Part shown: in pieces, positions 6,630 through 64,000 of the stretch
Layout of the letters: every line of letters begins with the position of its first letter
Position numbering within the stretch: position 1 is the stretch's first letter
NCBI RefSeq assembly: GCF_021917145.1
Contig: NC_061075.1
Coordinates: 5,107,240 to 5,171,239 of the forward strand
Source of the DNA: Hypomesus transpacificus
Lineage: Eukaryota; Chordata; Actinopteri; Osmeriformes; Osmeridae
Direction: 5' to 3'
DNA: 64,000 nt
Position numbers and translations under genes: made by a program
The notes under the pieces: model-generated
What the model saw: only the letters and a program-made list of their open reading frames with translations
Databases searched by the model: none
Told to the model about the DNA's origin: nothing

Positions 6630-32267
<25,638 letters not shown>

Positions 32268-41978: not shown

Positions 41979-42287
41979 GAATTATCTCTACCATGCGTAG
42001 ACTACAAGTAGCTAGCTACTGTAATGAACCTGGCTTGTTTAGCAGAGATTTACACGTTCTCGCTAAACAGATGATCGGAGTGTTGTGATGGGCTCAAATA
42101 AACACGCATTGCTATGTTTTACAACCAGAGGATTGATCAGAAAACAAAACCGTTTTGTCAGGATAAAAAATTATGCCTCTGACTAGTTTGGAACCTAAAA
42201 CCCTTTGCTTACCAGCACAACATCTAAGCCAATAGAGCCTTTCCCAGACATGGAATACACAAAGATCAGTAACTGCATTATAAAAAC
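41979..42287. other. unassigned DNA between transposons and U4 array
   Basis: AT-rich; no gene, RNA or repeat is recognised. The array's homology starts abruptly at 42288. Confidence 0.6.
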
Positions 42288-42376
42288 GCTGAACCACCAA
42301 ACCTACCTCTGTGCCAGAGAGCGCCGGGCGGCACAGCAGCTGAATCACCTGGGATCATTGCCAAAACACGGACACA

Positions 42377-42389
42377 CTGTCTTTCATAC
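42377..42389 (-). terminator. candidate 3' box of the U4 gene
   Basis: GTATGAAAGACAG (GTGTGAAAGACAG in most units) begins about 6 bp after the U4 3' end. It resembles the snRNA 3'-end-formation box GTTTN0-3AAARNNAGA. Confidence 0.6.
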
Positions 42390-42394
42390 CGACG

Positions 42395-42540
42395 TCAGCC
42401 TCCGTGGAGGCGATAAAAAATTGTCAAGGCTGGCTATATTTCAAGCCAATCCTGACGGGGTATTGGGTTAAGTTTTCAACCAGCAATAATCACGTCTCAG
42501 CTGGACTTCATAGACTACGATATTGCCTCTGCGAAAGGAT
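42395..42540 (-). ncRNA. U4: U4 snRNA, copy 1 (array edge, altered Sm site)
   Basis: U4 is the spliceosomal RNA that pairs with U6 in the tri-snRNP and keeps it inactive until spliceosome activation. Read on the minus strand from 42540, it starts ATCCTTTCGCAG (U6 stem II partner) and continues with the kink-turn stem-loop (nt 20-52), GATTATTGCTGGTTGAAAAC (stem I region), AACCCAATACCCCG, a central hairpin with loop TTGAAATATAG, the Sm site and a terminal hairpin. In this edge copy the Sm site reads AATTTTTTA instead of the AATTTTTGA of all other copies. Confidence 0.9.
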
Positions 42541-42581
42541 AGCCAACCAAGCAAGAGGGAATTCGGCCTGGTGTAGGAGCT

Positions 42582-42602
42582 CAGCCGAGCCATGGACGGT
42601 GT
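42582..42602 (-). promoter_or_regulatory. candidate proximal sequence element (PSE)
   Basis: On the minus strand, CTACACCAGGCCGAATTCCC lies about 40-60 bp upstream of the U4 start and keeps a CACC..GAAT spacing like vertebrate PSEs. There is no TATA box at -25, which fits a Pol II snRNA gene. The match is loose. Confidence 0.45.
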
Positions 42603-42785
42603 CCCGTTCTTGGATTCAAGCCTATGTTCAGGACCAATTTAGGATCGAGCGTGTTGGCGCATTCTTTCAAAATGCCTTGGATGTTACGGAAAGTATTGAG
42701 GAAAAGAGCGGGTGGGTGAGCTTTGGTGGGTGAGCTTTGTTGGACTTTTGCGGAGCCCATCCTGAAGCATGACGCTAGTGCGAGA

Positions 42786-42804
42786 GCAAGGCATTGTGGG
42801 TAAT
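42786..42804 (-). promoter_or_regulatory. STAF/ZNF143 (SPH) element, distal sequence element of the U4 unit
   Basis: Read on the minus strand: TTACCCACAATGCCTTGCTC, which fits the STAF/ZNF143 consensus core CCCANAATGC. It lies about 246-264 bp upstream of the copy 1 start, the usual place for an snRNA DSE. It repeats in the units; some have TCCCCACAATG instead. A reversed CCAAT box (GATTGG) lies 40 bp nearer the gene in most units. Confidence 0.75.
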
Positions 42805-42975
42805 ATGCTGCAACGGTGCCTGCTGAGGCCAAGCGTGCTGGGGAACTGTAAGGGTTCACGGGCCTCACGCTGAACCACCAAACCTACCTCTGTGCCAGAG
42901 AGCGCCGGGCGGCACAGCGGCTGAATCACCTGGGATCATTGCCAAAACACGGACGCACTGTCTTTCACACCGACG

Positions 42976-43121
42976 TCAGCCTCCGTGGAGGCGATCAAAA
43001 ATTGTCAAGACTGGCTATATTTCAAGCCAATCCTGACGGGGTATTGGGTTAAGTTTTCAACCAGCAATAATCACGTCTCAGCTGGACTTCATAGACTACG
43101 ATATTGCCTCTGCGAAAGGAT
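42976..43121 (-). ncRNA. U4: U4 snRNA, copy 2
   Basis: Complete; Sm site AATTTTTGA. Carries CAGTCTTG instead of CAGCCTTG in the central stem, which turns a G-C pair into G-U. Confidence 0.93.
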
Positions 43122-43556
43122 AGCTAACCAAGCAAGAGGGAATTCGGCCTGGTGTAGGAGCTCAGCCGAGCCATGGACGGTGTCCCGTTCTTGGATTCAA
43201 GCCTATGTTCAGGACCAATTTAGGATCGAGCGTGTTGGCGCATTCTTTCAAAATGCCTTGGATGTTACGGAAAGTATTGAGCAAAAGAGCGGGTGGGTGA
43301 GCTTTGGTGGGTGAGCTTTGTTGGACTTTTGCGGAGCCAATCCTGAAGCATGACGCTAGTGCGAGAGCAAGGCATTGTGGGTAATATGCTGCAACGGTGC
43401 CTGCTGAGGCCAAGCGTGCTGGGGAACTGTAAGGGTTCACGGGCCTCACGCTGAACCACCAAACCTACCTCTGTGCCAGAGAGCGCCGGGCGGCACAGCG
43501 GCTGAATCACCTGGGATCATTGCCAAAACACGGACGCACTGTCTTTCACACCGACG

Positions 43557-43702
43557 TCTGCCTCCGTGGAGGCGATCAAAAATTGTCAAGGCTGGCTATA
43601 TTTCAAGCCAATCCTGACGGGGTATTGGGTTAAGTTTTCAACCAGCAATAATCACGTCTCAGCTGGACTTCATAGACTACGATATTGCCTCTGCGAAAGG
43701 AT
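43557..43702 (-). ncRNA. U4: U4 snRNA, copy 3
   Basis: Complete; matches the array consensus except GGCAGA at the 3' end. Confidence 0.93.
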
Positions 43703-44137
43703 AGCCAACCAAGCAAGAGGGAATTCGGCCTGGTGTAGGAGCTCAGCCGAGCCATGGACGGTGTCCCGTTCTTGGATTCAAGCCTATGTTCAGGACCAAT
43801 TTAGGATCGAGCGTGTTGGCGCATTCTTTCAAAATGCCTTGGATGTTACGGAAAGTATTGAGCAAAAGAGCGGGTGTGTGAGCTTTGGTGGGTGAGCTTT
43901 GTTGGACTTTTGCGGAGCCAATCCTGAAGCATGACGCTAGTGCGAGAGCAAGGCATTGTGGGTAATATGCTGCAACGGTGCCTGCTGAGGCCAAGCGTGC
44001 TGGGGAACTGTAAGGGTTCACGGGCCTCACGCTGAACCACCAAACCTACCTCTGTGCCAGAGAGTGCCGGGCGGCACAGCGGCTGAATCACCTGGGATCA
44101 TTGCCAAAACACGGACGCACTGTCTTTCACACCGACG

Positions 44138-44283
44138 TCAGCCTCCGTGGAGGCGATCAAAAATTGTCAAGACTGGCTATATTTCAAGCCAATCCTGACG
44201 GGGTATTGGGTTAAGTTTTCAACCAGCAATAATCACGTCTCAGCTGGACTTCATAGACTACGATATTGCCTCTGCGAAAGGAT
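44138..44283 (-). ncRNA. U4: U4 snRNA, copy 4
   Basis: Complete; the CAGTCTTG variant. Its upstream region is cut by the LINE junction at about 44507, which removes its STAF-site DSE. Confidence 0.9.
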
Positions 44284-44507
44284 AGCTAACCAAGCAAGAG
44301 GGAATTCGGCCTGGTGTAGGAGCTCAGCCGAGCCATGGACGGTGTCCCGTTCTTGGATTCAAGCCTATGTTCAGGACCAATTTAGGATCGAGCGTGTTGG
44401 CGCATTCTTTCAAAATGCCTTGGATGTTACGGAAAGTATTAAGCAAAAGAGCGGGTGGGTGAGCTTTGGTGGGTGAGCTTTGTTGGACTTTTGCGGAGCC
44501 CATCCTG

Positions 44508-46659
44508 GAGGCACTTCCTCCAGTTGAGGGCCCCGCTCCCCTCCACCGCGAAGTCCACCCCGAGGACCCTCATGGGCCCCGGGCACGGAGACAGGCCGCC
44601 CACACCGTCCTCCCTCCCCACCCACGGCCCAAAAAACTTTATGCAGGACTTCCCCAGGTTGACCCTGGCCCCCGACACCTCCCCGAACCGACCCAACAGC
44701 TCCACCACCCTCCTCACCGACCCCTCCGACGTGAGGAAAAGGGTCATGTCGTCTGCGTACAGGGAGATCCGCAGCTCCTCCGGGCCCCCACCAGGCAGAC
44801 GCAGGCCCGCCACCCCCGCGTCCACCCTGATGGCCTCCGCCAGTGGCTCCAGATACATTATGAACAGCAGGGGAGACAAAGGGCACCCCTGCCGGACCCC
44901 CGACAGCTGCGGCACCACCTCCCCCAAGTGCCCGTTCACCGCCACCCTGCTGCCCACCCCCGTGTACAGAACCCCCACCCACCGCAAAAACCGAGGCCCA
45001 AAACCCACCCTCTCCATCGCCGAAAACAAAAACCCGTGATCCACCCTGTCGAACGCCTTCTCCATATCCAGGCCCACCAGCATCAGGTGGACCCCCCGCT
45101 CCCTCACCCAGTGCAGGCAGTCCCGGACCAGGCCCGTGTTAAAGTGGACCCTGCGCCCCTCCACTCCGCACGTCTGGTCCATGTGGACCACGTGTGGCAG
45201 CGCCGCCCGGAGCCTCCGCGCCACCACCCTGGCCAGGATTTTGTAGTCCGCGCAGAGCAGAGTGATGGGCCGGTAGTTGCCCATCAGTTCCGGGTCCCCT
45301 TTTTTGAAGAGGAGGCTGAGGACCCCCACCCGCATGGTGGCCCCCAGAAGTCCCCCCTCCAGCGCCGCCGCCAGCACCTCCACCAGGTCCGGTCCCAGGA
45401 TCCCCCAGAAGGCAACGAAAAACTCCCGGGGCAGGCCGTCGAGCCCGGGCACCTTCCCCGCCGGCAGTCCCCGCATGGCCTCCTCCACCTCCGCCAGGGA
45501 CAGAGGCCGCTCGAGGTCCTCCGCCACCCCTGCCGGCACCCTCCCGGGCAGGCCCCCCACAAAGCGGTCAGCCCCCTCCCTGTCCACCCCCCGCAGTCCG
45601 AAGGCCTCCCTATAGTGGGCGGTCGCCACCCCCACCATCCCCTTGGGGTCAGTGACCCGGGCCCCGTCCTCCGCCCGCAGTCCCGGGATGACGCTGCGCG
45701 CCCTGGCTGCCCGGACCTGGCGGAAAAAGAAGGCCCCGGACACCTCCCCCAACTCGAAAGCGTCCGCCCGGCTCCGGAAGAGGAAGGCCTCGGCCCTGGC
45801 CCGGAAGTAGGAGGCCAGCCTCCCCTTGACCACCTCCATGCCCTCCATGTCCGTCCCCTCCCCACGGTTCTCCGCTGCCAGCAGGTGGGACAAGGCCCTC
45901 TGGAGGCCGGACAGCTCCGCTCTCTCCGCCCGCGCTCTCCCAGCTCGGTAGTCCGTGGCCAGGGTCCGGGTGTGGACCTTGACGGCTTCCCACCAGTCCA
46001 CCACAGACCCAAAGTAGGGCTTGAGGGAGGCCCAGACCTCATAGTGGTCCCCGAAACAGATCCGACTGCGGTCCCCCCGTGAGTTGCCCCACGTGTAACC
46101 CTCCCCCCTTGCGTGCACAGCCCTATAACAGTCCTGCAACAAAAAACCCCCCACCACATCCCGTACATGTTGCGCCGTGAAATCCCCCTCCCTATCCAAA
46201 GAAACATTAAAGTCCCCACCCAACACCAAAACCCTATCCGTGACACAAACATCCGCCAGCGCCAACAACACCCCCTTGCGCTCCCGACGATGGGCCGGAG
46301 CATACACGTTGATAAAACGAAAAGAAACCCCCCTCCACGCCGCATCCACCACCAAAACCCTCCCCTGGACCACAGAAAAACTCCCCGACACCCTGAAATC
46401 CCGGTCCCCAAACAAAATACCCACCCCCGAGGAATGCACCCCCCCCACACCCCAGCAGGACTCCCCCCACACCCCAGCAGGACTCCCCCCTCCCCCAGCC
46501 CCGTTGGAAAACCCCCACATCCCTCCCGTCCCTCAAGTGAGCCTCCTGCACAAAGCACACGTGAAAAGACACCCCCCCCAGATACAAAAACACCCCCGCC
46601 CTCTTCACAGCCCCTTGCATCCCCCGGACATTAACGGTACAAACAATAAAGTCACCCAT
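44508..46659 (-). pseudogene. LINE copy A ORF2 (endonuclease-RT), truncated
   Basis: Starts ATGGGTGACTTT, overlapping the ORF1 stop. It has the endonuclease blocks NVRG, QEAH and GGDFNVSLD. It lacks the 57-codon stretch that in copy B holds the SDHH catalytic motif; the deletion is in frame. The RT blocks FKKGDPELMGNYRPITLL, GLDMEKAFDRVDH, GVRQGCPLSPLLF and YADDM are present. A small direct duplication (CCCAGCAGGACTCC) near 46447-46490 also breaks the frame. It ends in spacer DNA after LNWRKCL. Confidence 0.9.
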
Positions 46660-47247
46660 CGGGAAGCTTGTCCATGAAGTCCAAGCCTGTCTCAGGCGCC
46701 GAAGAGTCGGGGTAGTCCACAATGGCGAGACCTGCGTTCGGCGACAGCAGCTCCGGGAGGGAGCCCGCCAGGCTCAGGGGCGACTCCGGCACTGGCTCCC
46801 GGACCGGGAGCCGCCGCCGGACCGGGAGCCGCCGCCGGACCGGGAGCCGCCGCCGGACCGGGAGCCGCCGCCGGACCGGGAGCCGCCGCCGGACCGGGAG
46901 CCGCCGCCCAGTACTGCCTCCGGGCAGCCCAGATCCCGTATCCGTCCCGCAGGTAGCGTACCTGGGGGTCCACCTTGCCATACTTCCCCAGGAAGCCCGC
47001 AATCGTTGCGTCCCCCACGTACGGGTTGTAGACCAGCACCCCTGGAGACGGAGAGCTCGTAGCCCCCCTCCGCCAGGTTAAACTGTAGGCAAAAAAACTC
47101 CGCCGGAGCCAACCCCAAGGCCCCCATGACCACCTTCCGGATGAACCAGTCCCGGTCCCCAACTCCAAAACCCTCCTCCGTTGAAGAAAAACGCAACGTG
47201 TTGCGCAGGCCGGCCCCAGCCGCCTGAGAAGAACTCCTCCCAGCCAT
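46652..47247 (-). pseudogene. LINE copy A ORF1, internally deleted
   Basis: Starts MAGRSSSQAAGAGLRNTLRF and continues through DWFIRKVVMGALGLAPAEFF. A frame break near 47050 precedes VYNPYVGDATIAGFLGKYG. All three zinc knuckles are gone. In their place is a six-copy 18 bp repeat (46801-46908) that encodes Pro/Gly/Ala runs. It ends LPDG-stop, overlapping ORF2. Confidence 0.8.
46801..46908. repeat. 18 bp minisatellite inside LINE ORF1
   Basis: Six copies of GGACCGGGAGCCGCCGCC. Copy B has only about two at 56373-56408, so the repeat expanded in copy A or is variable between copies. Confidence 0.95.
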
Positions 47248-47434
47248 CGTGCACTGGAGGTCAAAAAAAAGACTGCCCAAAAAACCCTGAGAAAAACTAA
47301 AACGCAAGACTAGAGGAGGGCCCCATACACCGCACGACACCTCCTCATCCGCCCCCCCTTAACAGCGAAAACCCCCGAAAAAACGCCAAACGCCACGATC
47401 GTCGGTCGCCGTCCTTCCTCCTGTTGCTCCGTCC
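47248..47434 (-). other. LINE 5' untranslated region
   Basis: 187 bp between the U4 junction and the ORF1 start codon; the only copy of the LINE 5' end in the window. Confidence 0.75.
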
Positions 47435-47487
47435 AATCACGTCTCAGCTAGACTTCATAGACTACGATATTGCCTCTGCGAAAGGAT
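47435..47487 (-). ncRNA. U4: U4 snRNA, 5' part only (nt 1-53), cut by LINE copy A
   Basis: Reads normally from ATCCTTTCGCAG to GACGTGATT, then passes into the LINE 5' end. Carries C38T in the kink-turn loop. It cannot make a whole U4. Confidence 0.92.
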
Positions 47488-47922
47488 AGCCAACCAAGCA
47501 AGAGGGAATTCGGCCTGGTGTAGGAGCTCAGCCGAGCCATGGACGGTGTCCCGTTCTTGGATTCAAGCCTATGTTCAGGACCAATTTAGGATCGAGCGTG
47601 TTGGCGCATTCTTTCAAAATGCCTTGGATGTTACGGAAAGTATTGAGCAAAAGAGCAGGTGGATGAGCTTTGGTGGGTGAGCTTTGTTGGATTTTTGCGG
47701 AGCCAATCCTGAAGCATGACGCTAGTGCGAGAGCAAGGCATTGTGTGTAATATGCTGCAACGGTGCCTTCTGAGGCCAAGCGTGCTGGGGAACTGTAAGG
47801 GTTCACGGGCCTCACGCTGAACCACCAAACCTACCTCTGTGCCAGAGAGCGCCGGGCGGCACAGCGGCTGAATCACCTGGGATCATTGCCAAAACACGGA
47901 CGCACTGTCTTTCATACCGACG

Positions 47923-48068
47923 TCAGCCTCCGTGGAGGCGATCAAAAATTGTCAAGGCTGGCTATATTTCAAGCCAATCCTGACGGGGTATTGGGTTAAG
48001 TTTTCAACCAGCAATAATCACGTCTCAGCTGGACTTCATAGACTACGATATTGCCTCTGCGAAAGGAT
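47923..48068 (-). ncRNA. U4: U4 snRNA, copy 5
   Basis: Complete; array consensus. Confidence 0.93.
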
Positions 48069-48503
48069 AGCCAACCAAGCAAGAGGGAATTCGGCCTGGT
48101 GTAGGAGCTCAGCCGAGCCATGGACGGTGTCCCGTTCTTGGATTCAAGCCTATGTTCAGGACCAATTTAGGATCGAGCGTGTTGGCGCATTCTTTCAAAA
48201 TGCCTTGGATGTTACGGAAAGTATTGAGCAAAAGAGCGGGTGGGTGAGCTTTGGTGGGTGTGCTTTGTTGGACTTTTGCGGAGCCCATCCTGAAGCATGA
48301 CGCTAGTGCGAGAGCAAGGCATTGTGGGTAATATGCTGCAACGGTGCCTGCTGAGGCCAAGCGTGCTGGGGAACTGTAAGGGTTCACGGGCCTCACGCTG
48401 AACCACCAAACCTACCTCTGTGCCAGAGAGCGCCGGGCGGCACAGCGGCTGAATCACCTGGGATCATTGCCAAAACACGGACGCACTGTCTTTCACACCG
48501 ACG

Positions 48504-48649
48504 TCTGCCTCCGTGGAGGCGATCAAAAATTGTCAAGGCTGGCTATATTTCAAGCCAATCCTGACGGGGTATTGGGTTAAGTTTTCAACCAGCAATAATC
48601 ACATCTCAGCTGGACTTCATAGACTACGAAATTGCCTCTGTGAAAGGAT
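48504..48649 (-). ncRNA. U4: U4 snRNA, copy 6 (several changes)
   Basis: Complete but carries G9A (CTTTCACAG, weakening U6 stem II), A20T at the base of the 5' stem, and C47T, which makes a G-U pair in the kink-turn stem. Confidence 0.9.
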
Positions 48650-49084
48650 AGCCAACCAAGCAAGAGGGAATTCGGCCTGGTGTAGGAGCTCAGCCGAGCC
48701 ATGGACGGTGTCCCGTTCTTGGATTCAAGCCTATGTTCAGGACCAATTTAGGATTGAGCGTGTTGGCGCATTCTTTCAAAATGCCTTGGATGTTACGGAA
48801 AGTATTGAGCAAAAGAGCGGGTGGGTGAGCTTTGGTGGGTGAGCTTTGTTGGACTTTTGCGGAGCCAATCCTGAAGCATGACGCTAGTGCGAGAGCAAGG
48901 CATTGTGGGGAATATGCTGCAACGGTGCCTGCTGAGGCCAAGCGTGCTGGGGAACTGTAAGGGTTCACGGGCCTCACGCTTAACCACCAAACCTACCTCT
49001 GTGCCAGAGAGCGCCGGGCGGCACAGCGGCTGAATCACCTGGGATCAATGCCAAAACACGGACGCACTGTCTTTCACACCGACG

Positions 49085-49230
49085 TCAGCCTCCGTGGAGG
49101 CGATCAAAAATTGTCAAGGCTGGCTATATTTCAAGCCAATCCTGACGGGGTATTGGATTAAGTTTTCAACCAGCAATAATCACGTCTCAGCTGGACTTCA
49201 TAGACTACGATATTGCCTCTGCGAAAGGAT
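49085..49230 (-). ncRNA. U4: U4 snRNA, copy 7
   Basis: Complete; C74T (CTTAATCCAATA). Confidence 0.93.
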
Positions 49231-49665
49231 AGCCAACCAAGCAAGAGGGAATTCGGCCTGGTGTAGGAGCTCAGCCGAGCCATGGACGGTGTCCCGTTCT
49301 TGGATTCAAGCCTATGTTCAGGACCAATTTAGGATCGAGCGTGTTGGCGCATTCTTTCAAAATGCCTTGGATGTTACGGAAAGTATTGAGCAAAAGAGCG
49401 GGTGGGTGAGCTTTGGTGGGTGAGCTTTGTTGGACTTTTGCGGAGCCAATCCTGAAGCATGACGCTAGTGCGAGAGCAAGGCATTGTGGGTAATATGCTG
49501 CAACGGTGCCTGCTGAGTCCAAGCGTGCTGGGTAACTGTAAGAGTTCACGGGCCTCACGCTGAACCACCAAACCTACCTCTGTGCCAGAGAGCGCCGGGC
49601 GGCACAGCGGCTGAATCACCTGGGATTATTGCCAAAACACGGACGCACTGTCTTTCACACCGACG

Positions 49666-49811
49666 TCAGCCTCCGTGGAGGCGATCAAAAATTGTCAAGG
49701 CTGGCTATATTTCAAGCCAATCCTGACGGGGTATTGGGTTAAGTTTTCAACCAGCAATAATCACGTCTCAGCTGGACTTCATAGACTACGATATTGCCTC
49801 TGCGAAAGGAT
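49666..49811 (-). ncRNA. U4: U4 snRNA, copy 8
   Basis: Complete; array consensus. Confidence 0.93.
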
Positions 49812-50246
49812 AGCTAACCAAGCAAGAGGGAATTCGGCCTGGTGTAGGAGCTCAGCCGAGCCATGGACGGTGTCCCGTTCTTGGATTCAAGCCTATGTTC
49901 AGGACCAATTTAGGATCGAGCGTGTTGGCGCATTCTTTCAAAATGCCTTGGATGTTACGGAAAGTATTGAGCAAAAGAGCGGGTGGGTGAGCTTTGGTGG
50001 GTGAGCTTTGTTGGACTTTTGCGGAGCCAATCCTGAAGCATGACGCTAGTGCGAGAGCAAGGCATTGTGGGTAATATGCTGCAACGGTGCCTGCTGAGTC
50101 CAAGCGTGCTGGGTAACTGTAAGAGTTCACGGGCCTCACGCTGAACCACCAAACCTACCTCTGTGCCAGAGAGCGCCGGGCGGCACAGCGGCTGAATCAC
50201 CTGGGATCATTGCCAAAACACGGACGCACTGTCTTTCACACCGACG

Positions 50247-50392
50247 TCAGCCTCCGTGGAGGCGATCAAAAATTGTCAAGACTGGCTATATTTCAAGCCA
50301 ATCCTGACGGGGTATTGGGTTAAGTTTTCAACCAGCAATAATCACGTCTCAGCTGGACTTCATAGACTACGATATTGCCTCTGCGAAAGGAT
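50247..50392 (-). ncRNA. U4: U4 snRNA, copy 9
   Basis: Complete; CAGTCTTG variant. The upstream flank reads TTGTCTGGCT instead of TTGGTTGGCT. Confidence 0.93.
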
Positions 50393-50827
50393 AGCCAGAC
50401 AAGCAAGAGGGAATTCGGCCTGGTGTAGGAGCTCAGCCGAGCCATGGACGGTGTCCCGTTCTTGGATTCAAGCCTATGTTCAGGACCAATTTAGGATCGA
50501 GCGTGTTGGCGCATTCTTTCAAAATGCCTTGGATGTTACGGAAAGTATTGAGCAAAAGAGCGGGTGGGTGAGCTTTGGTGGGTGAGCTTTGTTGGACTTT
50601 TGTGGAGCCAATCCTGAAGCATGACGCTAGTGCGAGAGCAAGGCATTGTGGGTAATATGCTGCAACGGTGCCTGCTGAGGCCAAGCGTGCTGGGGAACTG
50701 TAAGGGTTCACGGGCCTCACGCTGAACCACCAAACCTACCTCTGTGCCAGAGAGCGCCGGGCGGCACAGCGGCTGAATCACCTGGGATCATTGCCAAAAC
50801 ACGGACGCACTGTCTTTCACACCGACG

Positions 50828-50973
50828 TCAGCCTCCGTGGAGGCGATCAAAAATTGTCAAGACTGGCTATATTTCAAGCCAATCCTGACGGGGTATTGGG
50901 TTAAGTTTTCAACCAGCAATAATCACGTCTCAGCTGGACTTCATAGACTACGATATTGCCTCTGCGAAAGGAT
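50828..50973 (-). ncRNA. U4: U4 snRNA, copy 10
   Basis: Complete; CAGTCTTG variant. Confidence 0.93.
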
Positions 50974-51408
50974 AGCTAACCAAGCAAGAGGGAATTCGGC
51001 CTGGTGTAGGAGCTCAGCCGAGCCATGGACGGTGTCCCGTTCTTGGATTCAAGCCTATGTTCAGGACCAATTTAGGATCGAGCGTGTTGGCGCATTCTTT
51101 CAAAATGCCTTGGATGTTACGGAAAGTATTGAGCAAAAGAGCGGGTGGGTGAGCTTTGGTGGGTGAGCTTTGTTGGACTTTTGCGGAGCCAATCCTGAAG
51201 CATGACGCTAGTGCGAGAGCAAGGCATTGTGGGGAATATGCTGCAACGGTGCCTGCTGAGGCCAAGCGTGCTGGGGAACTGTAAGGGTTCACGGGCCTCA
51301 CGCTGAACCACCAAACCTACCTCTGTGCCAGAGAGCGCCGGGCGGCACAGCGGCTGAATCACCTGGGATCATTGCCAAAACACGGACGCACTGTCTTTCA
51401 CACCGACG

Positions 51409-51554
51409 TCAGCCTCCGTGGAGGCGATCAAAAATTGTCAAGACTGGCTATATTTCAAGCCAATCCTGACGGGGTATTGGGTTAAGTTTTCAACCAGCAA
51501 TAATCACGTCTCAGCTGGACTTCATAGACTACGATATTGCCTCTGCGAAAGGAT
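51409..51554 (-). ncRNA. U4: U4 snRNA, copy 11
   Basis: Complete; CAGTCTTG variant, with the same altered upstream flank as copy 9. Confidence 0.93.
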
Positions 51555-51989
51555 AGCCAGACAAGCAAGAGGGAATTCGGCCTGGTGTAGGAGCTCAGCC
51601 GAGCCATGGACGGTGTCCCGTTCTTGGATTCAAGCATATGTTCAGGACCAATTTAGGATCGAGCGTGTTGGCGCATTCTTTCAAAATGCCTTGGATGTTA
51701 CGGAAAGTATTGAGCAAAAGAGCGGGTGGGTGAGCTTTGGTGGGTGAGCTTTGTTGGACTTTTGCGGAGCCAATCCTGAAGCATGACGCTAGTGCGAGAG
51801 CAAGGCATTGTGGGTAATATGCTGCAACGGTGCCTGCTGAGGCCAAGCGTGCTGGGGAACTGTAAGGGTTCACGGGCCTCACGCTGAACCACCAAACCTA
51901 CCTTTGTGCCAGAGAGCGCCGGGCGGCACAGCGGCTGAATCACCTGGGATCATTGCCAAAACACGGACGCACTGTCTTTCACACCGACG

Positions 51990-52104
51990 TCAGCCTCCGT
52001 GGAGGCGATCAAAAATTGTCAAGGCTGGCTATATTTCAAGCCAATCCTGACGGGGTATTGGGTTAAGTTTTCAACCAGCAATAATCACGTCTCAGCTAGA
52101 CTTC
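51990..52104 (-). ncRNA. U4: U4 snRNA, 3' part only (nt 32-146), cut by LINE copy B
   Basis: The LINE 3' end abuts U4 nt 32 here. Carries C38T, like the fragment at 47435-47487. Sm site and both 3' hairpins are present. Confidence 0.92.
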
Positions 52105-52327
52105 TTAATAGATTTATTTCCACAACAAGACAAAACAAACACCAGGCCCACTAGCCACTCGGACCACATCGGTCAAGGAAAACAAAAACAGGTGAAAATA
52201 CAACACAAACAAAACCTTACAAACAAAACCACAGACATCAACCAGTCAGAAAAACAACCAAAAACAGGAGAAAAAACCATCGCAGTCCACAAACCCTCCA
52301 ACCACACATCAAAGGTCAAAAACCCCG
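52105..52327 (-). other. LINE 3' untranslated region
   Basis: 223 bp, less GC-rich than the ORFs, with no long poly(A). It ends TTTATTT/AATCTATTAA-like (read on the minus strand) at the U4 junction. Confidence 0.75.
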
Positions 52328-55300: not shown

Positions 55301-55688
55301 ATCCGCCAGCGCCAACAACACCCCCTTGCGCTCCCGACGATGGGCCGGAGCATACACGTTGATAAAACGAAAAGAAACCCCCCTCCACGCCGCATCCACC
55401 ACCAAAACCCTCCCCTGGACCACAGAAAAACTCCCCGACACCCTGAAATCCCGGTCCCCAAACAAAATACCCACCCCCGAGGAATGCACCCCCCCCACAC
55501 CCCAGCAGGACTCCCCCCTCCCCCAGCCCCGTTGGAAAACCCCCACATCCCTCCCGTCCCTCAAGTGAGCCTCCTGCACGAAGCACACGTGAAAAGACAC
55601 CCCCCCCCAGATACAAAAACACCCCCGCCCTCTTCACAGCCCCTTGCATCCCCCGGACATTAACGGTACAAACAATAAAGTCACCCAT
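52328..55688 (-). CDS. LINE copy B ORF2: endonuclease-reverse transcriptase
   Basis: About 1119 codons. It nicks target DNA and primes reverse transcription there. The endonuclease blocks are NVRG, QEAHLRDG, GGDFNVSLD, RSRIDFVF and WFSDHHQLRV. The RT blocks are FKKGDPELMGNYRPITLLCA, GLDMEKAFDRVDHGFLF, SGVRQGCPLSPLLF and SLYADDMTLFL. The C-terminal knuckle is CPRAACGG..VAHAFVEC. The start codon at 55688 overlaps the ORF1 stop (ATGGGTGA). A homopolymer has 9 C at 55600-55608 where copy A has 8; this shifts the frame after about 28 codons. That could be a real break or a sequencing error. Otherwise the frame is open for 1090 codons. Confidence 0.93.
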
Positions 55689-57058
55689 CGGGAAGCTTGT
55701 CCATGAAGTCCAAGCCTGTCTCAGGCGCCGAAGAGTCGGGGTAGTCCACAATGGCGAGACCTGCATTCGGCGACAGCAGCTCCGGGAGGGAGCCCGCCAG
55801 GCTCAGGGGCGACTCCGGCACTGGCTCCATGCATCCCGGCAGCACGACCGGGGCAAGCCCCGGGGCCCCGCCGGTCGCCGCCCCTGTCCCTTTAGAACCA
55901 GAAACCGCCTCCGCGCCCGGAGGGGCAGTGGGCGGTATGGCGTCCTCCAAGACGGCCTCTGCGTCGTCCGACCCAGAATGTAGGGCAAAGCGGTTGGCCA
56001 AAGGGAGAGAGGCAGGGGGGTCAAATGCCACACCCAACCCCTTCCTCTTCTTCCTCTTCCTCTTTCCCTGCACCGGAAGCTCCGACCGCCCCTCCCCGGA
56101 AGAGGAAGGCGACACCTCACCGCCCGACAACGACCGGCTCCTCCGCAGACTCGCCGCAGCCACCTCCATGCCATCCTCCTCGCTGCCCCCGACCGACCAG
56201 GAGCCACCCAGTGGAAAACTGGAAAAATCCAGCTCGGCCAGAACGGCCAGAGCATCCCCCTCCACCGCCTCTCCCCAGGACGAAATCAAGGTAGCTTCCA
56301 GCGCGTTGACCTCTGCCTCCCCCCGGAGGCCGGCACCCGCCGAATCGGGACCCGCCGCCGGACCCGCCGCCGGACCGGGAGCCGCCGCCGGACCGGGAGC
56401 CGCCGCCACCACCGCCGCCTGAACGGGATCCGCAGCCGGACCGGGAAACGCGTCCGCCGCCACCGCCTCCGGAACACGACCCGCAGCCGGACCGGGAAAC
56501 GCCTCCGCCGCCACCGCCTCCGGAACGGGATCCATAGCCGGACCGGGAATCGCCTCCTCCGCCGCCGCAGGACCCTCAGGACCCGCCTCCGCCGCCTGAC
56601 CACCAGGAGCCCTCCGACCAGCGGGGCCGGAAAACCCCCCCCAGGCACCCTGGCCCCCCCGATGGCCAGAGACCGCCCCGGCGTAGGAGCGCCTGGAGCA
56701 GTCGCGAAACAGGTGCCCGTCCTCGCCACAATGATGGCACTTCTTGGGGGCCTGGCAGGAAGCAACGCCGTGCCCCGCCTCCCCACAGTTCCGGCACCGC
56801 AGCTGGGCGCACCCGGTGGCCACGTGCCCGAAAACCCGGCACTTCCGGCAAAACGCGGGCTGCCCGGAGTAAAAAAGAAACCCTCTCTCGGCCCCGATGG
56901 TAAAGTAGGCCGGGGGGTGCCGGAGGCCGTCCGCACCCTCCGGATCGTCGGCCAGCAGGACCCGGTACTGCCTCCGGGCAGCCCAGATCCCGTATCCGTC
57001 CCGCAGGTAGCGTACCTGGGGGTCCACCTTGCCATACTTCCCCAGGAAGCCCGCAATC
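55681..57058 (-). pseudogene. LINE copy B ORF1, N-terminus missing
   Basis: An RNA-binding protein of the LINE RNP. Open from the junction to LPDG-stop. It contains IAGFLGKYGKVDPQVRYLRD, then three CX2CX4HX4C knuckles (CRKCRVFGHVATGC, CRNCGEAGHGVASC, CHHCGEDGHLFRDC). A long Pro/Ala/Glu-rich region follows, with a basic block KRKRKKRK that could act as a nuclear signal. It lacks the start region, which is kept in copy A. Confidence 0.88.
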
Positions 57059-57329
57059 AAGTATTGAGCAAAAGAGCGGGTGGGTGAGCTTTGGTGGACT
57101 TTTGCGGAGCCAATCCTGAAGCATGACGCTAGTGCGAGAGCAAGGCATTGTGGGTAATATGCTGCAACGGTGCCTGCTGAGTCCAAGCGTGCTGGGTAAC
57201 TGTAAGAGTTCACGGGCCTCACGCTGAACCACCAAACCTACCTCTGTGCCAGAGAGCGCCGGGCGGCACAGCGGCTGAATCACCTGGGATCATTGCCAAA
57301 ACACGGACGCACTGTCTTTCACACCGACG

Positions 57330-57475
57330 TCTGCCTCCGTGGAGGCGATCAAAAATTGTCAAGGCTGGCTATATTTCAAGCCAATCCTGACGGGATATTG
57401 GGTTAAGTTTTCAACCAGCAATAATCACGTCTCAGCTAGACTTCATAGACTACGATATTGCCTCTGCGAAAGGAT
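57330..57475 (-). ncRNA. U4: U4 snRNA, copy 12 (C38T type)
   Basis: Complete; C38T in the kink-turn loop and CAATATCCCG in place of CAATACCCCG. This is the same unit type as the LINE-bearing unit but without the LINE. Confidence 0.93.
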
Positions 57476-57910
57476 AGCCAACCAAGCAAGAGGGAATTCG
57501 GCCTGGTGTAGGAGCTCAGCCGAGCCATGGACGGTGTCCCGTTCTTGGATTCAAGCCTATGTTCAGGACCAATTTAGGATCGAGCGTGTTGGCGCATTCT
57601 TTCAAAATGCCTTGGATGTTACGGAAAGTATTGAGCAAAAGAGCGGGTGGGTGAGCTTTGGTGGGTGAGCTTTGTTGGATTTTTGCGGAGCCAATCCTGA
57701 AGCATGACGCTAGTGCGAGAGCAAGGCATTGTGGGTAATATGCTGCAACGGTGCCTGCTGAGGCCAAGCGTGCTGGGGAACTGTAAGGGTTCACGGGCCT
57801 CACGCTGAACCAACAAACCTACCTCTGTGCCAGAGAGCGCCGGGCGGCACAGCGGCTGAATCACCTGGGATCATTGCCAAAACACGGACGCACTGTCTTT
57901 CACACCGACG

Positions 57911-58056
57911 TCAGCCTCCGTGGAGGCGATCAAAAATTGTCAAGGCTGGCTATATTTCAAGCCAATCCTGACGGGGTATTGGGTTAAGTTTTCAACCAGC
58001 AATAATCACGTCTCAGCTGGACTTCATAGACTATGATATTGCCTCTGCGAAAGGAT
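57911..58056 (-). ncRNA. U4: U4 snRNA, copy 13
   Basis: Complete; G23A in the lower 5' stem (CAATATCATAG). Confidence 0.92.
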
Positions 58057-58491
58057 AGCCAACCAAGCAAGAGGGAATTCGGCCTGGTGTAGGAGCTCAG
58101 CCGAGCCATGGACGGTGTCCCGTTCTTGGATTCAAGCCTATGTTCAGGACCAATTTAGGATCGAGCGTGTTGGCGCATTCTTTCAAAATGCCTTGGATGT
58201 TACGGAAAGTATTGAGCAAAAGAGCGGGTGGGTGAGCTTTGGTGGGTGAGCTTTGTTGGACTTTTGCGGAGCCCATCCTGAAGCATGACGCTAGTGCGAG
58301 AGCAAGGCATTGTGGGGAATATGCTGCAACGGTGCCTGCTGAGGCCAAGCGTGCTGGGGAACTGTAAGGGTTCATGGGCCTCACGCTGAACCACCAAACC
58401 TACCTCTGTGCCAGAGAGCGCCGGGCGGCACAGCGGCTGAATCACCTGGGATCATTGCCAAAACACGGACGCACTGTCTTTCACACCGACG

Positions 58492-58637
58492 TCTGCCTTC
58501 GTGGAGGCGATCAAAAATTGTCAAGGCTGGCTATATTTCAAGCCAATCCTGACGGGGTATTGGGTTAAGTTTTCAACCAGCAATAATCACGTCTCAGCTG
58601 GACTTCATAGACTACGAAATTGCCTCTGCGAAAGGAT
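58492..58637 (-). ncRNA. U4: U4 snRNA, copy 14
   Basis: Complete; A20T, plus CACGAAGG in the 3' hairpin, which breaks one pair. Confidence 0.92.
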
Positions 58638-59072
58638 AGCCAACCAAGCAAGAGGGAATTCGGCCTGGTGTAGGAGCTCAGCCGAGCCATGGACGGTGTC
58701 CCGTTCTTGGATTCAAGCCTATGTTCAGGACAAATTTAGGATCGAGCGTGTTGGCGCATTCTTTCAAAATGCCTTGGATGTTACGGAAAGTATTGAGCAA
58801 AAGAGCGGGTGGGTGAGCTTTGGTGGGTGAGCTTTGTTGGACTTTTGCGGAGCCAATCCTGAAGCATGACGCTAGTGCGAGAGCAAGGCATTGTGGGGAA
58901 TATGCTGCAACGGTGCCTGCTGAGGCCAAGCGTGCTGGGGAACTGTAAGGGTTCACGGGCCTCACGCTTAACCACCAAACCTACCTCTGTGCCAGAGAGC
59001 GCCGGGCGGCACAGCGGCTGAATCACCTGGGATCATTGCCAAAACACGGACGCACTGTCTTTCACACCGACG

Positions 59073-59218
59073 TCAGCCTCCGTGGAGGCGATCAAAAATT
59101 GTCAAGGCTGGCTATATTTCAAGCCAATCCTGACGGGGTATTGGGTTAAGTTTTCAACCAGCAATAATCACGTCTCAGCTGGACTTCATAGACTACGATA
59201 TTGCCTCTGCGAAAGGAT
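59073..59218 (-). ncRNA. U4: U4 snRNA, copy 15
   Basis: Complete; array consensus. Confidence 0.93.
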
Positions 59219-59639
59219 AGCCAACCAAGCAAGAGGGAATTCGGCCTGGTGTAGGAGCTCAGCCGAGCCATGGACGGTGTCCCGTTCTTGGATTCAAGCC
59301 TATGTTCAGGACCAATTTAGGATCGAGCGTGTTGGCGCATTCTTTCAAAATGCCTTGGATGTTACGGAAAGTATTGAGCAAAAGAGCGGGTGGGTGAGCT
59401 TTGGTGGACTTTTGCGGAGCCAATCCTGAAGCATGACGCTAGTGCGAGAGCAAGGCATTGTGGGTAATATGCTGCAACGGTGCCTGCTGAGTCCAAGCGT
59501 GCTGGGTAACTGTAAGAGTTCACGGGCCTCACGCTGAACCACCAAACCTACCTCTGTGCCAGAGAGCGCCGGGCGGCACAGCGGCTGAATCACCTGGGAT
59601 CATTGCCAAAACACGGACGCACTGTCTTTCACACCGACG

Positions 59640-59785
59640 TCTGCCTCCGTGGAGGCGATCAAAAATTGTCAAGGCTGGCTATATTTCAAGCCAATCCTGA
59701 CGGGATATTGGGTTAAGTTTTCAACCAGCAATAATCACGTCTCAGCTAGACTTCATAGACTACGATATTGCCTCTGCGAAAGGAT
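59640..59785 (-). ncRNA. U4: U4 snRNA, copy 16 (C38T type)
   Basis: Complete; same changes as copy 12. The upstream and downstream spacers also match that unit. Confidence 0.93.
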
Positions 59786-60220
59786 AGCCAACCAAGCAAG
59801 AGGGAATTCGGCCTGGTGTAGGAGCTCAGCCGAGCCATGGACGGTGTCCCGTTCTTGGATTCAAGCCTATGTTCAGGACCAATTTAGGATCGAGCGTGTT
59901 GGCGCATTCTTTCAAAATGCCTTGGATGTTACGGAAAGTATTGAGCAAAAGAGCGGGTGGGTGAGCTTTGGTGGGTGAGCTTTGTTGGATTTTTGCGGAG
60001 CCAATCCTGAAGCATGACGCTAGTGCGAGAGCAAGGCATTGTGGGTAATATGCTGCAACGGTGCCTGCTGAGGCCAAGCGTGCTGGGGAACTGTAAGGGT
60101 TCACGGGCCTCACGCTGAACCACCAAACCTACCTCTGTGCCAGAGAGCGCCGGGCGGCACAGCGGCTGAATCACCTGGGATCATTGCCAAAACACGGACG
60201 CACTGTCTTTCACACCGACG

Positions 60221-60366
60221 TCAGCCTCCGTGGAGGCGATCAAAAATTGTCAAGGCTGGCTATATTTCAAGCCAATCCTGACGGGGTATTGGGTTAAGTT
60301 TTCAACCAGCAATAATCACGTCTCAGCTGGACTTCATAGACTACGAAGTTGCCTCTGCGAAAGGAT
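60221..60366 (-). ncRNA. U4: U4 snRNA, copy 17
   Basis: Complete; T19C and A20T (CAACTTCG). Confidence 0.92.
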
Positions 60367-60792
60367 AGCCAACCAAGCAAGAGGGAATTCGGCCTGGTGT
60401 AGGAGCTCAGCCGAGCCATGGACGGTGTCCCGTTCTTGGATTCAAGCCTATGTTCAGGACCAATTTAGGATCGAGCGTGTTGGCGCATTCTTTCAAAATG
60501 CCTTGGATGTTACGGAAAGTATTGAGCAAAAGAGCGGGTGGGTGGGGTGAGCTTTGTTGGACTTTTGCGGAGCCAATCCTGAAGCATGACGCTAGTGCGA
60601 GAGCAAGGCATTGTGGGTAATATGCTGCAACGGTGCCTGCTGAGGCCAAGCGTGCTGGGGAACTGTAAGGGTTCACGGGCCTCACGCTGAACCACCAAAC
60701 CTACCTCTGTGCCAGAGAGCGCCGGGCGGCACAGCGGCTGAATCACCTGGGATCATTGCCAAAACACGGACGCACTGTCTTTCACACCGACG

Positions 60793-60938
60793 TCAGCCTC
60801 CGTGGAGGCGATCAAAAATTGTCAAGGCTGGCTATATTTCAAGCCAATCCTGACGGGGTATTGGGTTAAGTTTTCAACCAGCAATAATCACGTCTCAGCT
60901 GGACTTCATAGACTACGATATTGCCTCTGCGAAAGGAT
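60793..60938 (-). ncRNA. U4: U4 snRNA, copy 18
   Basis: Complete; array consensus. The spacer upstream of copy 17 has a 9 bp deletion, so this unit sits 572 bp from it. Confidence 0.93.
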
Positions 60939-61373
60939 AGCCAACCAAGCAAGAGGGAATTCGGCCTGGTGTAGGAGCTCAGCCGAGCCATGGACGGTGT
61001 CCCGTTCTTGGATTCAAGCCTATGTTCAGGACCAATTTAGGATCGAGCGTGTTGGCGCATTCTTTCAAAATGCCTTGGATGTTACGGAAAGTATTGAGCA
61101 AAAGAGCGGGTGGGTGAGCTTTGGTGGGTGAGCTTTGTTGGACTTTTGCGGAGCCAATCCTGAAGCATGACGCTAGTGCGAGAGCAAGGCATTGTGGGTA
61201 ATATGCTGCAACGGTGCCTGCTGAGGCCAAGCGTGCTGGGGAACTGTAAGGGTTCACGGGCCTCACGCTGAACCACCAAACCTACCTCTGTGCCAGAGAG
61301 CGCCGGGCGGCACAGCGGCTGAATCACCTGGGATCATTGCCAAAACACGGACGCACTGTCTTTCACACCGACG

Positions 61374-61519
61374 TCAGCCTCCGTGGAGGCGATCAAAAAT
61401 TGTCAAGGCTGGCTATATTTCAAGCCAATCCTGACGGGGTATTGGGTTAAGTTTTCAACCAGCAATAATCACGTCTCAGCTGGACTTCATAGACTACGAT
61501 ATTGCCTCTGCGAAAGGAT
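61374..61519 (-). ncRNA. U4: U4 snRNA, copy 19
   Basis: Complete; array consensus. Confidence 0.93.
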
Positions 61520-61954
61520 AGCCAACCAAGCAAGAGGGAATTCGGCCTGGTGTAGGAGCTCAGCCGAGCCATGGACGGTGTCCCGTTCTTGGATTCAAGC
61601 CTATGTTCAGGACCAATTTAGGATCGAGCGTGTTGGCGCATTCTTTCAAAATGCCTTGGATGTTACGGAAAGTATTGAGCAAAAGAGCGGGTGGGTGAGC
61701 TTTGGTGGGTGAGCTTTGTTGGACTTTTGCGGAGCCAATCCTGAAGCATGACGCTAGTGCGAGAGCAAGGCATTGTGGGGAATATGCTGCAACGGTGCCT
61801 GCTGAGGCCAAGCGTGCTGGGGAACTGTAAGGGTTCACGGGCCTCACGCTGAACCACCAAACCTACCTCTGTGCCAGAGAGCGCCGGGCGGCACAGCGGC
61901 TGAATCACCTGGGATCATTGCCAAAACACGGACGCACTGTCTTTCACACCGACG

Positions 61955-62100
61955 TCAGCCTCCGTGGAGGCGATCAAAAATTGTCAAGGCTGGCTATATT
62001 TCAAGCCAATCCTGACGGGGTATTGGGTTAAGTTTTCAACCAGCAATAATCACGTCTCAGCTGGACTTCATAGACTACGAAATTGCCTCTGCGAAAGGAT
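61955..62100 (-). ncRNA. U4: U4 snRNA, copy 20
   Basis: Complete; A20T. Confidence 0.92.
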
Positions 62101-62535
62101 AGCCAACCAAGCAAGAGGGAATTCGGCCTGGTGTAGGAGCTCAGCCGAGCCATGGACGGTGTCCCGTTCTTGGATTCAAGCCTATGTTCAGGACCAATTT
62201 AGGATCGAGCGTGTTGGCGCATTCTTTCAAAATGCCTTGGATGTTACGGAAAGTATTGAGCAAAAGAGCGGGTGGGTGAGCTTTGGTGGGTGAGCTTTGT
62301 TGGACTTTTGCGGAGCCAATCCTGAAGCATGACGCTAGTGCGAGAGCAAGGCATTGTGGGTAATATGCTGCAACGGTGCCTGCTGAGGCCAAGCGTGCTG
62401 GGGAACTGTAAGGGTTCACGGGCCTCACGCTGAACCACCAAACCTACCTCTGTGCCAGAGAGCGCCGGGCGGCACAGCGGCTGAATCACCTGGGATCATT
62501 GCCAAAACACGGACGCACTGTCTTTCACACCGACG

Positions 62536-62681
62536 TCAGCCTCCGTGGAGGCGATCAAAAATTGTCAAGGCTGGCTATATTTCAAGCCAATCCTGACGGG
62601 GTATTGGGTTAAGTTTTCAACCAGCAATAATCACGTCTCAGCTGGACTTCATAGACTACGATATTGCCTCTGCGAAAGGAT
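62536..62681 (-). ncRNA. U4: U4 snRNA, copy 21
   Basis: Complete; array consensus. Confidence 0.93.
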
Positions 62682-63112
62682 AGCCAACCAAGCAAGAGGG
62701 AATTCGGCCTGGTGTAGGAGCTCAGCCGAGCCATGGACGGTGTCCCGTTCTTGGATTCAAGCCTATGTTCAGGACCAATTTAGGATCGAGCGTGTTGGCG
62801 CATTCTTTCAAAATGCCTTGGATGTTACGGAAAGTATTGAGCAAAAGAGCGGGTGGGTGAGCTTTGGTGGGTGAGCTTTGTTGGACGCGGAGCCAATCCT
62901 GAAGCATGACGCTAGTGCGAGAGCAAGGCATTGTGGGTAATATGCTGCAACGGTGCCTGCTGAGTCCAAGCGTGCTGGGGAACTGTAAGGGTTCACGGGC
63001 CTCACGCTGAACCACCAAACCTACCTCTGTGCCAGAGAGCGCCGGGCGGCACAGCGGCTGAATCACCTGGGATCATTGCCAAAACACGGACGCACTGTCT
63101 TTCACACCGACG

Positions 63113-63258
63113 TCTGCCTCCGTGGAGGCGATCAAAAATTGTCAAGGCTGGCTATATTTCAAGCCAATCCTGACGGGGTATTGGGTTAAGTTTTCAACCA
63201 GCAATAATCACGTCTCAGCTGGACTTCATAGACTACGATATTGCCTCTGCGAAAGGAT
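63113..63258 (-). ncRNA. U4: U4 snRNA, copy 22
   Basis: Complete; differs from consensus only by GGCAGA at the 3' end. Confidence 0.93.
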
Positions 63259-63693
63259 AGCCAACCAAGCAAGAGGGAATTCGGCCTGGTGTAGGAGCTC
63301 AGCCGAGCCATGGACGGTGTCCCGTTCTTGGATTCAAGCCTATGTTCAGGACCAATTTAGGATCGAGCGTGTTGGCGCATTCTTTCAAAATGCCTTGGAT
63401 GTTACGGAAAGTATTGAGCAAAAGAGCGGGTGGGTGAGCTTTGGTGGGTGAGCTTTGTTGGACTTTTGCGGAGCCAATCCTGAAGCATGACGCTAGTGCG
63501 AGAGCAAGGCATTGTGGGTAATATGCTGCAACGGTGCCTGCTGAGGCCAAGCGTGCTGGGGAACTGTAAGGGTTCACGGGCCTCACGCTGAACCACCAAA
63601 CCTACCTCTGTGCCAGAGAGCGCCGGGCGGCACAGCGGCTGAATCACCTGGGATCATTGCCAAAACACGGACGCACTGTCTTTCACACCGACG

Positions 63694-63839
63694 TCAGCCT
63701 CCGTGGAGGCGATCAAAAATTGTCAAGGCTGGCTATATTTCAAGCCAATCCTGACGGGGTATTGGGTTAAGTTTTCAACCAGCAATAATCACGTCTCAGC
63801 TGGACTTCATAGACTACGATATTGCCTCTGCGAAAGGAT
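63694..63839 (-). ncRNA. U4: U4 snRNA, copy 23 (last in window)
   Basis: Complete; array consensus. The array continues past position 64000. Confidence 0.93.
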
Positions 63840-64000
63840 AGCCAACCAAGCAAGAGGGAATTCGGCCTGGTGTAGGAGCTCAGCCGAGCCATGGACGGTG
63901 TCCCGTTCTTGGATTCAAGCCTATGTTCAGGACCAATTTAGGATCGAGCGTGTTGGCGCATTCTTTCAAAATGCCTTGGATGTTACGGAAAGTATTGAGC

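Follow-up and report, generated by a model that had tools for sequence, protein, structure and literature searches.

Stage-specific small nuclear RNAs (snRNAs) have long been known, and developmental snRNA sets have already been described; whether such RNAs build a functionally distinct spliceosome is a question on which the loci presented here bear. They are a tandem array of a divergent U4 snRNA in the fish Hypomesus transpacificus, found in a stretch of 64,000 nucleotides (C16:5107240-5171239, contig NC_061075.1; hereafter the window), and an array of a U6 variant on another contig, C9. The whole assembly (437 Mb, 376 contigs, designated by C and a number) was searched. As far as the part of Wilson and Postlethwait (2024, PMC11075544) drawn on here goes, which refers to a preprint by Pagano and colleagues (2020), the maternal U1, U6 and 5S genes of zebrafish lie in one multi-copy block that is active in oocytes, and somatic genes located elsewhere replace them. 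GCGCAA and GCGAAA are given, in the part of PMC3706591 used, as the zebrafish U6 letters at Dada-U6 sites. The smelt loci resemble the zebrafish maternal snRNA genes in forming multi-copy blocks separate from the ordinary genes and in showing two kinds of U6 letters. They differ in that expression is known in zebrafish whereas here we deal with genes alone, in that maternal U1 and U6 but only somatic U4 are named there, and in a U4-U6 double change between arrays that is not mentioned in that part of PMC11075544. Switching of U4 isoforms during development occurs in Xenopus, chicken and Drosophila according to the sections used of Lu and Matera (2014, PMC4291461), and the likeness to those animals is the presence of more than one U4 per genome; in the same sections the U4 paralogues of vertebrates (human, mouse, rat, chicken) are said to vary at no more than three nucleotides, whereas about 30 of 144 differ here. 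Like canonical vertebrate U4 (Rfam family RF00015), the array U4 has the fold as judged by covariance score, the kink-turn (K-turn), the Sm site and the U6 stems; unlike it, it is about 20% different and carries six double changes. We consider it likely that the array is a second working U4 with the C9 U6 as its partner, and that together with variant U1 and U2 arrays it belongs to a second RNA set of the major spliceosome.

A cmscan search with RF00015 gave 24 U4 matches in the window, all on the minus strand and within 42399-63839, each of which spans model positions 1-138. Their scores range from 69.5 to 113.2 bits; all exceed the gathering score of 46. A poor covariance score, named in an earlier note on this DNA as a sign against its proposal, was sought and not seen. 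Full-length genes make up 23 of the 24 matches, the exception being the one at 51994-52134 (69.5 bits), which is cut by a retrotransposon. When copies were counted from the window through C16:5190000, the array was found to extend past the window and to end near C16:5180936, with 39 full-length copies (23 inside and 16 beyond). The spacing is exactly 581 bp in 33 of the 38 intervals, in agreement with the 581-bp unit and the end-to-end, minus-strand U4 described in the earlier note. The same note had treated 42288-64000 as a tandem array; an array it is, but not an unbroken one, as pieces of a retrotransposon occupy about 44508-47434 and 52108-57058. Over 145 nt, 22 of the 39 C16 copies are identical. 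Contig C26 has three further full copies and one 5' fragment. By eye, the array breaks off at its right end (C16:5180936) within a U4, at nt 20-21, and the DNA beyond that point looks like the element in the U1 array. The parts of the array in the window are as follows.

42286..44507, minus strand: block 1 of the U4 array, four full-length genes (RF00015; left edge set by blastn to the C26 units).
42977..43121, minus strand: representative U4 gene of 145 nt (Rfam match 42980-43121, 113.2 bits).
47435..52107, minus strand: block 2 of the U4 array, seven full-length genes (RF00015), with a 5' U4 fragment at its left end and the U4 cut by retrotransposon copy B at its right end.
57059..64000, minus strand: block 3 of the U4 array, 12 full-length genes (RF00015), running on past the window.

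Ordinary U4 genes are present in the same genome, one at C14:3467808 (128.6 bits) and five on C7 (114.8-128.5 bits), and the array U4 is therefore a paralogue beside ordinary U4. The alternative that the species has no other U4 had also been looked for; the genes on C14 and C7 speak otherwise, and they rule out a lineage-wide fast evolution of U4. The C14 copy and human U4 differ at 6 of 144 positions. In its first 88 nt the array U4 shows 17 differences from the C14 copy, 15 from the C7a copy and 20 from human U4, for which 19 had been claimed. Over the 144 aligned positions it differs from C14 at 30 and from C7a at 31.

It had been proposed that these changes are mostly compensatory. We examined 24 core pairs, taken partly from Rfam's U4 structure and partly from folds in which the array U4 itself was included, a choice that favours agreement; all 24 stay standard from ordinary to array U4. 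The pair 36-40 (absent from ordinary U4), the pairs around 89, 90 and 92 (in another register), and 128-145 and 129-144, which form the foot of the 3' stem, lie outside this test. The differences that fall in the 24 pairs number 14 against C14 and 13 against C7a, and 12 of them form six double changes (27-46, 34-42, 95-108, 93-110, 86-117 and 131-142). For comparison, differences were placed at random, with sites treated as independent, in 20,000 runs for each of four settings (C14 or C7a; placement anywhere or in paired columns). With placement anywhere, a mean of 18.6 or 18.7 pairs was kept, 0.5-0.6 double changes arose, and all 24 pairs survived in 16 and 36 of the 20,000 runs; with placement in paired columns the corresponding values were 16.8 or 17.6 pairs, 0.9-1.0 double changes, and 1 and 0 runs. 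In none of the settings did any of the 20,000 runs produce six double changes. The proposal therefore holds for the paired columns (12 of 13-14 differences) and fails for the RNA as a whole, where 12 of the 30-31 differences are compensated, together with nt 7 through U6.

Alignment confirmed the particular changes reported at 27-46 (C-G to U-A), 34-42 (G-C to A-U) and 131-142 (U-A to C-G). For the central hairpin, in which about four swaps had been counted, three double swaps were found (95-108, 93-110 and 86-117); in addition, 88-115 is changed on one side only and the register is shifted near 89-92. By its letters the K-turn of the 5' stem-loop (U31 and the pairs G32-A44 and A33-G43) is intact in all 39 of the C16 copies, and 38 of the 39 retain the Sm site AAUUUUUGA, both as claimed. 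The pentaloop of this stem-loop is changed from UUUAU in ordinary U4 to UCCAG. Taken together, the presence of ordinary U4, the 24 kept pairs and the six double changes, as well as the promoter-position motifs shared with ordinary U4 and the matching U6 described below, support a strongly divergent paralogue shaped by structural selection. The earlier note had left it between past and present selection. Past selection is supported by the comparison with ordinary U4; present constraint, sought in the variation within the array (9 variable sites of 145 in the gene and 22 of 436 in the spacer), gave no signal.

At nt 7 the G of ordinary U4 is replaced by U in 39 of 39 C16 copies, which breaks the pair with C68 of ordinary U6. 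That this change would fit a U6 reading GCGAAA was written down before the U6 letters of the genome were read. U6 genes were located by a pattern of 31 bases, which U6 genes altered elsewhere in those bases would escape, and the pattern fits 22 places: 17 on C9, 4 on C12 and 1 on C4. It can be seen that all 17 copies of the C9 array (C9:14502537-14525576) carry GCGAAA with C86, and all five genes on C12 and C4 carry GCGCAA with U86. The substituted U6 letter, C68A, stands opposite nt 7 of U4; a search for U6 variants with matching changes, as the earlier note had suggested, thus yielded one. The C9 copies are identical over 107 nt in 17 of 17, are spaced by about 1.44 kb and show 9 differences in 107 positions when compared with the C12 form; C68A is the sole one of these within the 23 U4-paired positions considered.

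Nucleotides 1-16 of the array U4 pair with ordinary U6 at 14 of 16 positions, exactly as claimed before, and with the C9 variant at 15 of 16 (stem II); in stem I the complementarity to U6 is 8 of 8. Predicted stem II energies are −26.2 and −23.8 kcal/mol for ordinary U4 with ordinary U6, −27.0 kcal/mol for array U4 with C9 U6, and −22.5, −19.5 and −17.3 kcal/mol for mixed pairs, so matched duplexes are predicted to be more stable than mixed ones. At nt 4 of the array U4 a U-G pair with U6 has become C-G, and part of the duplex stability is therefore independent of the U6 variant. Judged from these sequences, the array probably encodes a functional U4 with the C9 U6 as its pairing partner, and we infer that the two RNAs are both transcribed and assemble with each other. 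The double change offers a one-nucleotide handle on each side, by which the two U4s and the two U6s are separable in reads and their cross-assembly is directly measurable; if true, the pairing would illustrate a way in which one spliceosome might be insulated from another in the same genome. No matched U4-U6 variant pair was found in titles and abstracts of the open-licence PubMed Central (PMC) literature, a scope outside which lies the zebrafish preprint of Pagano et al. (2020), which may contain one. Within that literature, we found no report of a U4-U6 pair that co-varies between separate arrays. In the one C9 U6 unit that was read, the opposite strand carries a divergent U2 (127.3 bits), whose branch-pairing letters are GTAGTT rather than GTAGTA.

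Three putative transcription signals accompany the representative gene, under names and consensus sequences (proximal sequence element, PSE; SPH/ZNF143; 3'-box) that we take to be the standard ones.

43177..43181, minus strand: ACCGT at −60, PSE-like (position comparison with ordinary U4).
43372..43381, minus strand: CCCACAATGC at −260, SPH/ZNF143-like (motif comparison).
42957..42970, minus strand: GTGTGAAAGACAGT, 3'-box-like with two mismatches (motif comparison).

The ACCGT at −60 is common to the array U4 and five of the six ordinary U4 genes, the sixth having ACCAT, and the SPH/ZNF143-like motif lies at −213 to −217 in all six. The 3'-box-like sequence was equalled in 34 of 2000 shuffles, and four ordinary genes have three or four mismatches there. 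Because of these motifs, the array U4 is likely to be transcribed.

Other spliceosomal RNAs were counted in the same way, and the counts for the arrays are lower bounds. For U2, among 46 scored matches six dispersed ones reach 193.9-194.3 bits, and at least 40 on C42, C158 and C162 score 167.8-172.9 bits; one array U2 differs from one ordinary U2 at 24 of 186 positions. For U1, 42 matches were obtained, the ordinary ones on C89 and C7 with 164.1-168.3 bits and at least 24 on C23 with 159.8 bits, the latter in two groups at a spacing of about 858 bp; array and ordinary U1 differ at 13 or 14 of 164 positions. Multi-copy loci of their own, apart from the ordinary genes, thus exist for U4 (C16 and C26), U6 (C9), U2 (C42, C158 and C162) and U1 (C23). 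The distinct sequences expected of a maternal-type set are present in U4 (30-31 of 144 positions), U6 (9 of 107), U2 (24 of 186) and U1 (13-14 of 164). As controls, the minor-spliceosome RNAs U12 (one match among 44 scored candidates) and U4atac (two among 49) showed no arrays. U5 has at least 47 matches, in an array on C23 and as single copies on C3 and C23, and the array U5 differs from a nearby single copy by one inserted base.

The U2 of C158 and C162 has CTG for AAG close to the letters that pair with U6, and another U2 that was read keeps AAG; the one copy read of the C42 U2 (C42:121786-129494) has GTAGTG for the branch-pairing GTAGTA. In stem-loop 2 of the C23 array U1, ATTGCACTTC stands in place of the ordinary ATTGCACTCC, at a site that we take to be the U1A-binding loop.

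The simplest reading is that the array U4 would be the oocyte U4, and the C9 array the oocyte U6, of this fish. By analogy with zebrafish, the array set would be made in growing oocytes, where the many tandem copies would supply the stock of the egg; the few ordinary genes would serve the body, and unequal crossing-over would keep each array uniform. On that analogy the second major-spliceosome RNA set is probably maternal. Use of the array set in oocytes seems moderately likely, and the stage- or germline-specific use suggested in the earlier note is plausible. A further possibility goes beyond this: the genome may keep two insulated U4/U6 pairs, array U4 and array U6 having co-evolved until each U4 prefers its own U6, so that a physically separate germline spliceosome results, with snRNA-targeting retrotransposons living in and moving between the arrays. 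We hold this extension to be less likely than not.

Several observations weigh against a second working U4 within a second RNA set. The match between U4 and U6 is a single pair, for which a hand estimate (three or four changed positions of 23, one letter in three) gives a probability by chance of about 4-6%; that the search for it was planned beforehand adds to its strength. When the array RNA is folded by itself or with either U6, the structure of lowest energy departs from that of U4 and loses the 5' stem-loop and stem I; at the foot of the 3' stem, 129-144 no longer forms a pair. The array U4 scores (69.5-113.2 bits in the window) lie under those of ordinary U4 (114.8-128.6 bits), and gene and spacer are equally variable within the array. 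The two zebrafish U4 genes named in the part of PMC11075544 used are somatic, with no maternal U4 given there. Finally, an arrangement of all five major snRNAs in two clean sets was considered and dropped, U5 being without a clean split.

Part of this evidence would fit a working but unspecialised second U4, with array and ordinary genes co-expressed in all tissues and their variants mixing freely. The promoter-position motifs are of the same kind in both, 14 of the 16 stem II positions of array U4 can pair with ordinary U6 (−22.5 kcal/mol), and U5 is not cleanly divided. Such an explanation is unlikely, however, as the changes in U4 and in U6 fall on the same pair, and as variants of U1, U2, U4 and U6, each in arrays of its own, better fit a co-used set. 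The equal variability of gene and spacer, the lower covariance scores and the retrotransposon pieces inside the array are what one would look for in a decaying or silent amplified array, in which a formerly functional U4 variant is passively maintained through unequal crossing-over while retrotransposons disrupt it. Yet 22 of the 39 copies on C16 share one and the same 145-nt sequence, the K-turn letters are intact in 39 of 39, motifs are present at −60, at −260 and downstream, and the six double changes need a long functional past, so we consider decay improbable. More improbable still is that the array U4 has left the spliceosome for another ribonucleoprotein, for example in a germline processing or regulatory role. 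The altered pentaloop (UUUAU to UCCAG) would be in keeping with such a role, but the array U4 retains its K-turn, its Sm site and both of the stems formed with U6, and its U6 partner co-varies.

The array is interrupted by GC-rich blocks, copies A and B, which are pieces of one minus-strand retrotransposon without long terminal repeats (99.7% alike over 1551 bp).

44508..47434, minus strand: retrotransposon copy A, 5' end in a U4 gene, without 3' end, with an internal deletion.
52108..57058, minus strand: retrotransposon copy B, intact 3' end in a U4 gene, 5'-truncated.
52328..55633, minus strand: open frame of 1101 amino acids (RVT_1 113.9 bits, zf-RVT 33.6).
55681..57060, minus strand: part of open frame 1, with a zinc knuckle (25.0 bits) and a ZCCHC3-like RNA-binding domain (61.5).

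The 1101-residue frame also has an Exo_endo_phos match, the domain that would correspond to the apurinic-like endonuclease of Keno, a U2-targeting element of the Tx1 clade; at 22.2 bits it lies below the cut-off of 24.5. The junctions with U4 lie at nt 52-53 for copy A and at about nt 33-34 for copy B, from which two different copies we infer a target duplication of about 20 bp. A copy on C26 (C26:4638533-4642600) has the same U4 5' junction and a different 5' end, and its 3' flank is satellite DNA after AGTC. By eye, C26:4636000-4638530 is satellite DNA with a repeat of about 630 bp, which lies next to the U4 array of C26 and adjoins the 3' end of the element.

In the part of PMC4640811 drawn on here, the only snRNA-targeting elements are Keno, Utopia, Dada-U1 and Dada-U6; U2 genes disrupted by Utopia are without 38 bp, and the 3' flank of Keno is the same. 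Likewise, in close copies of the window element at C42:192487-198162 and C12:5845615-5846145 the 3' flank is U2 from nt 38 (of the ordinary U2 type in the C12 copy). The C16 and C26 copies lack this U2 flank, and unlike Keno and Utopia the window element lies in U4. Because close copies sit both in U2 and in U4, the element appears by sequence to be Keno-like and to have also used U4. A strictly U4-specific retrotransposon was considered and dropped, for the four close copies with a 3' end are followed by U2 twice (C12, C42), by U4 (C16) and by satellite (C26), a tally that leaves aside a fifth, weak match on C7 (84 bp, 85%). Searches of titles and abstracts in the open-licence PMC literature showed no U4-targeting retrotransposon. 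Between its U2 flank and the 5' end of the element, the C42 copy carries a stretch of 13 nt from U4 (nt 41-53), as would be expected if RNA read from a U4-resident copy was then inserted into U2; chance or template jumping may also account for it. Distant relatives (33% identical) at C23:16592746-16595196 and C23:16748490-16751285 lie in the variant U1 array and are followed by U1 (GGTTCACCCAGGGCGAGGC), which makes U1 a target for a non-LTR element here. The one that was read on its 5' side has the same 16 U1 letters there and looks 5'-truncated.

Outside the array, a Pfam search of 10 chosen frames from 1-42 kb found nothing besides a pentraxin domain frame at 30185-30871 (82.4 bits). Its best named hit is from Oncorhynchus mykiss (72%), and the named hits include several adhesion G-protein coupled receptor D2-like proteins of fishes.

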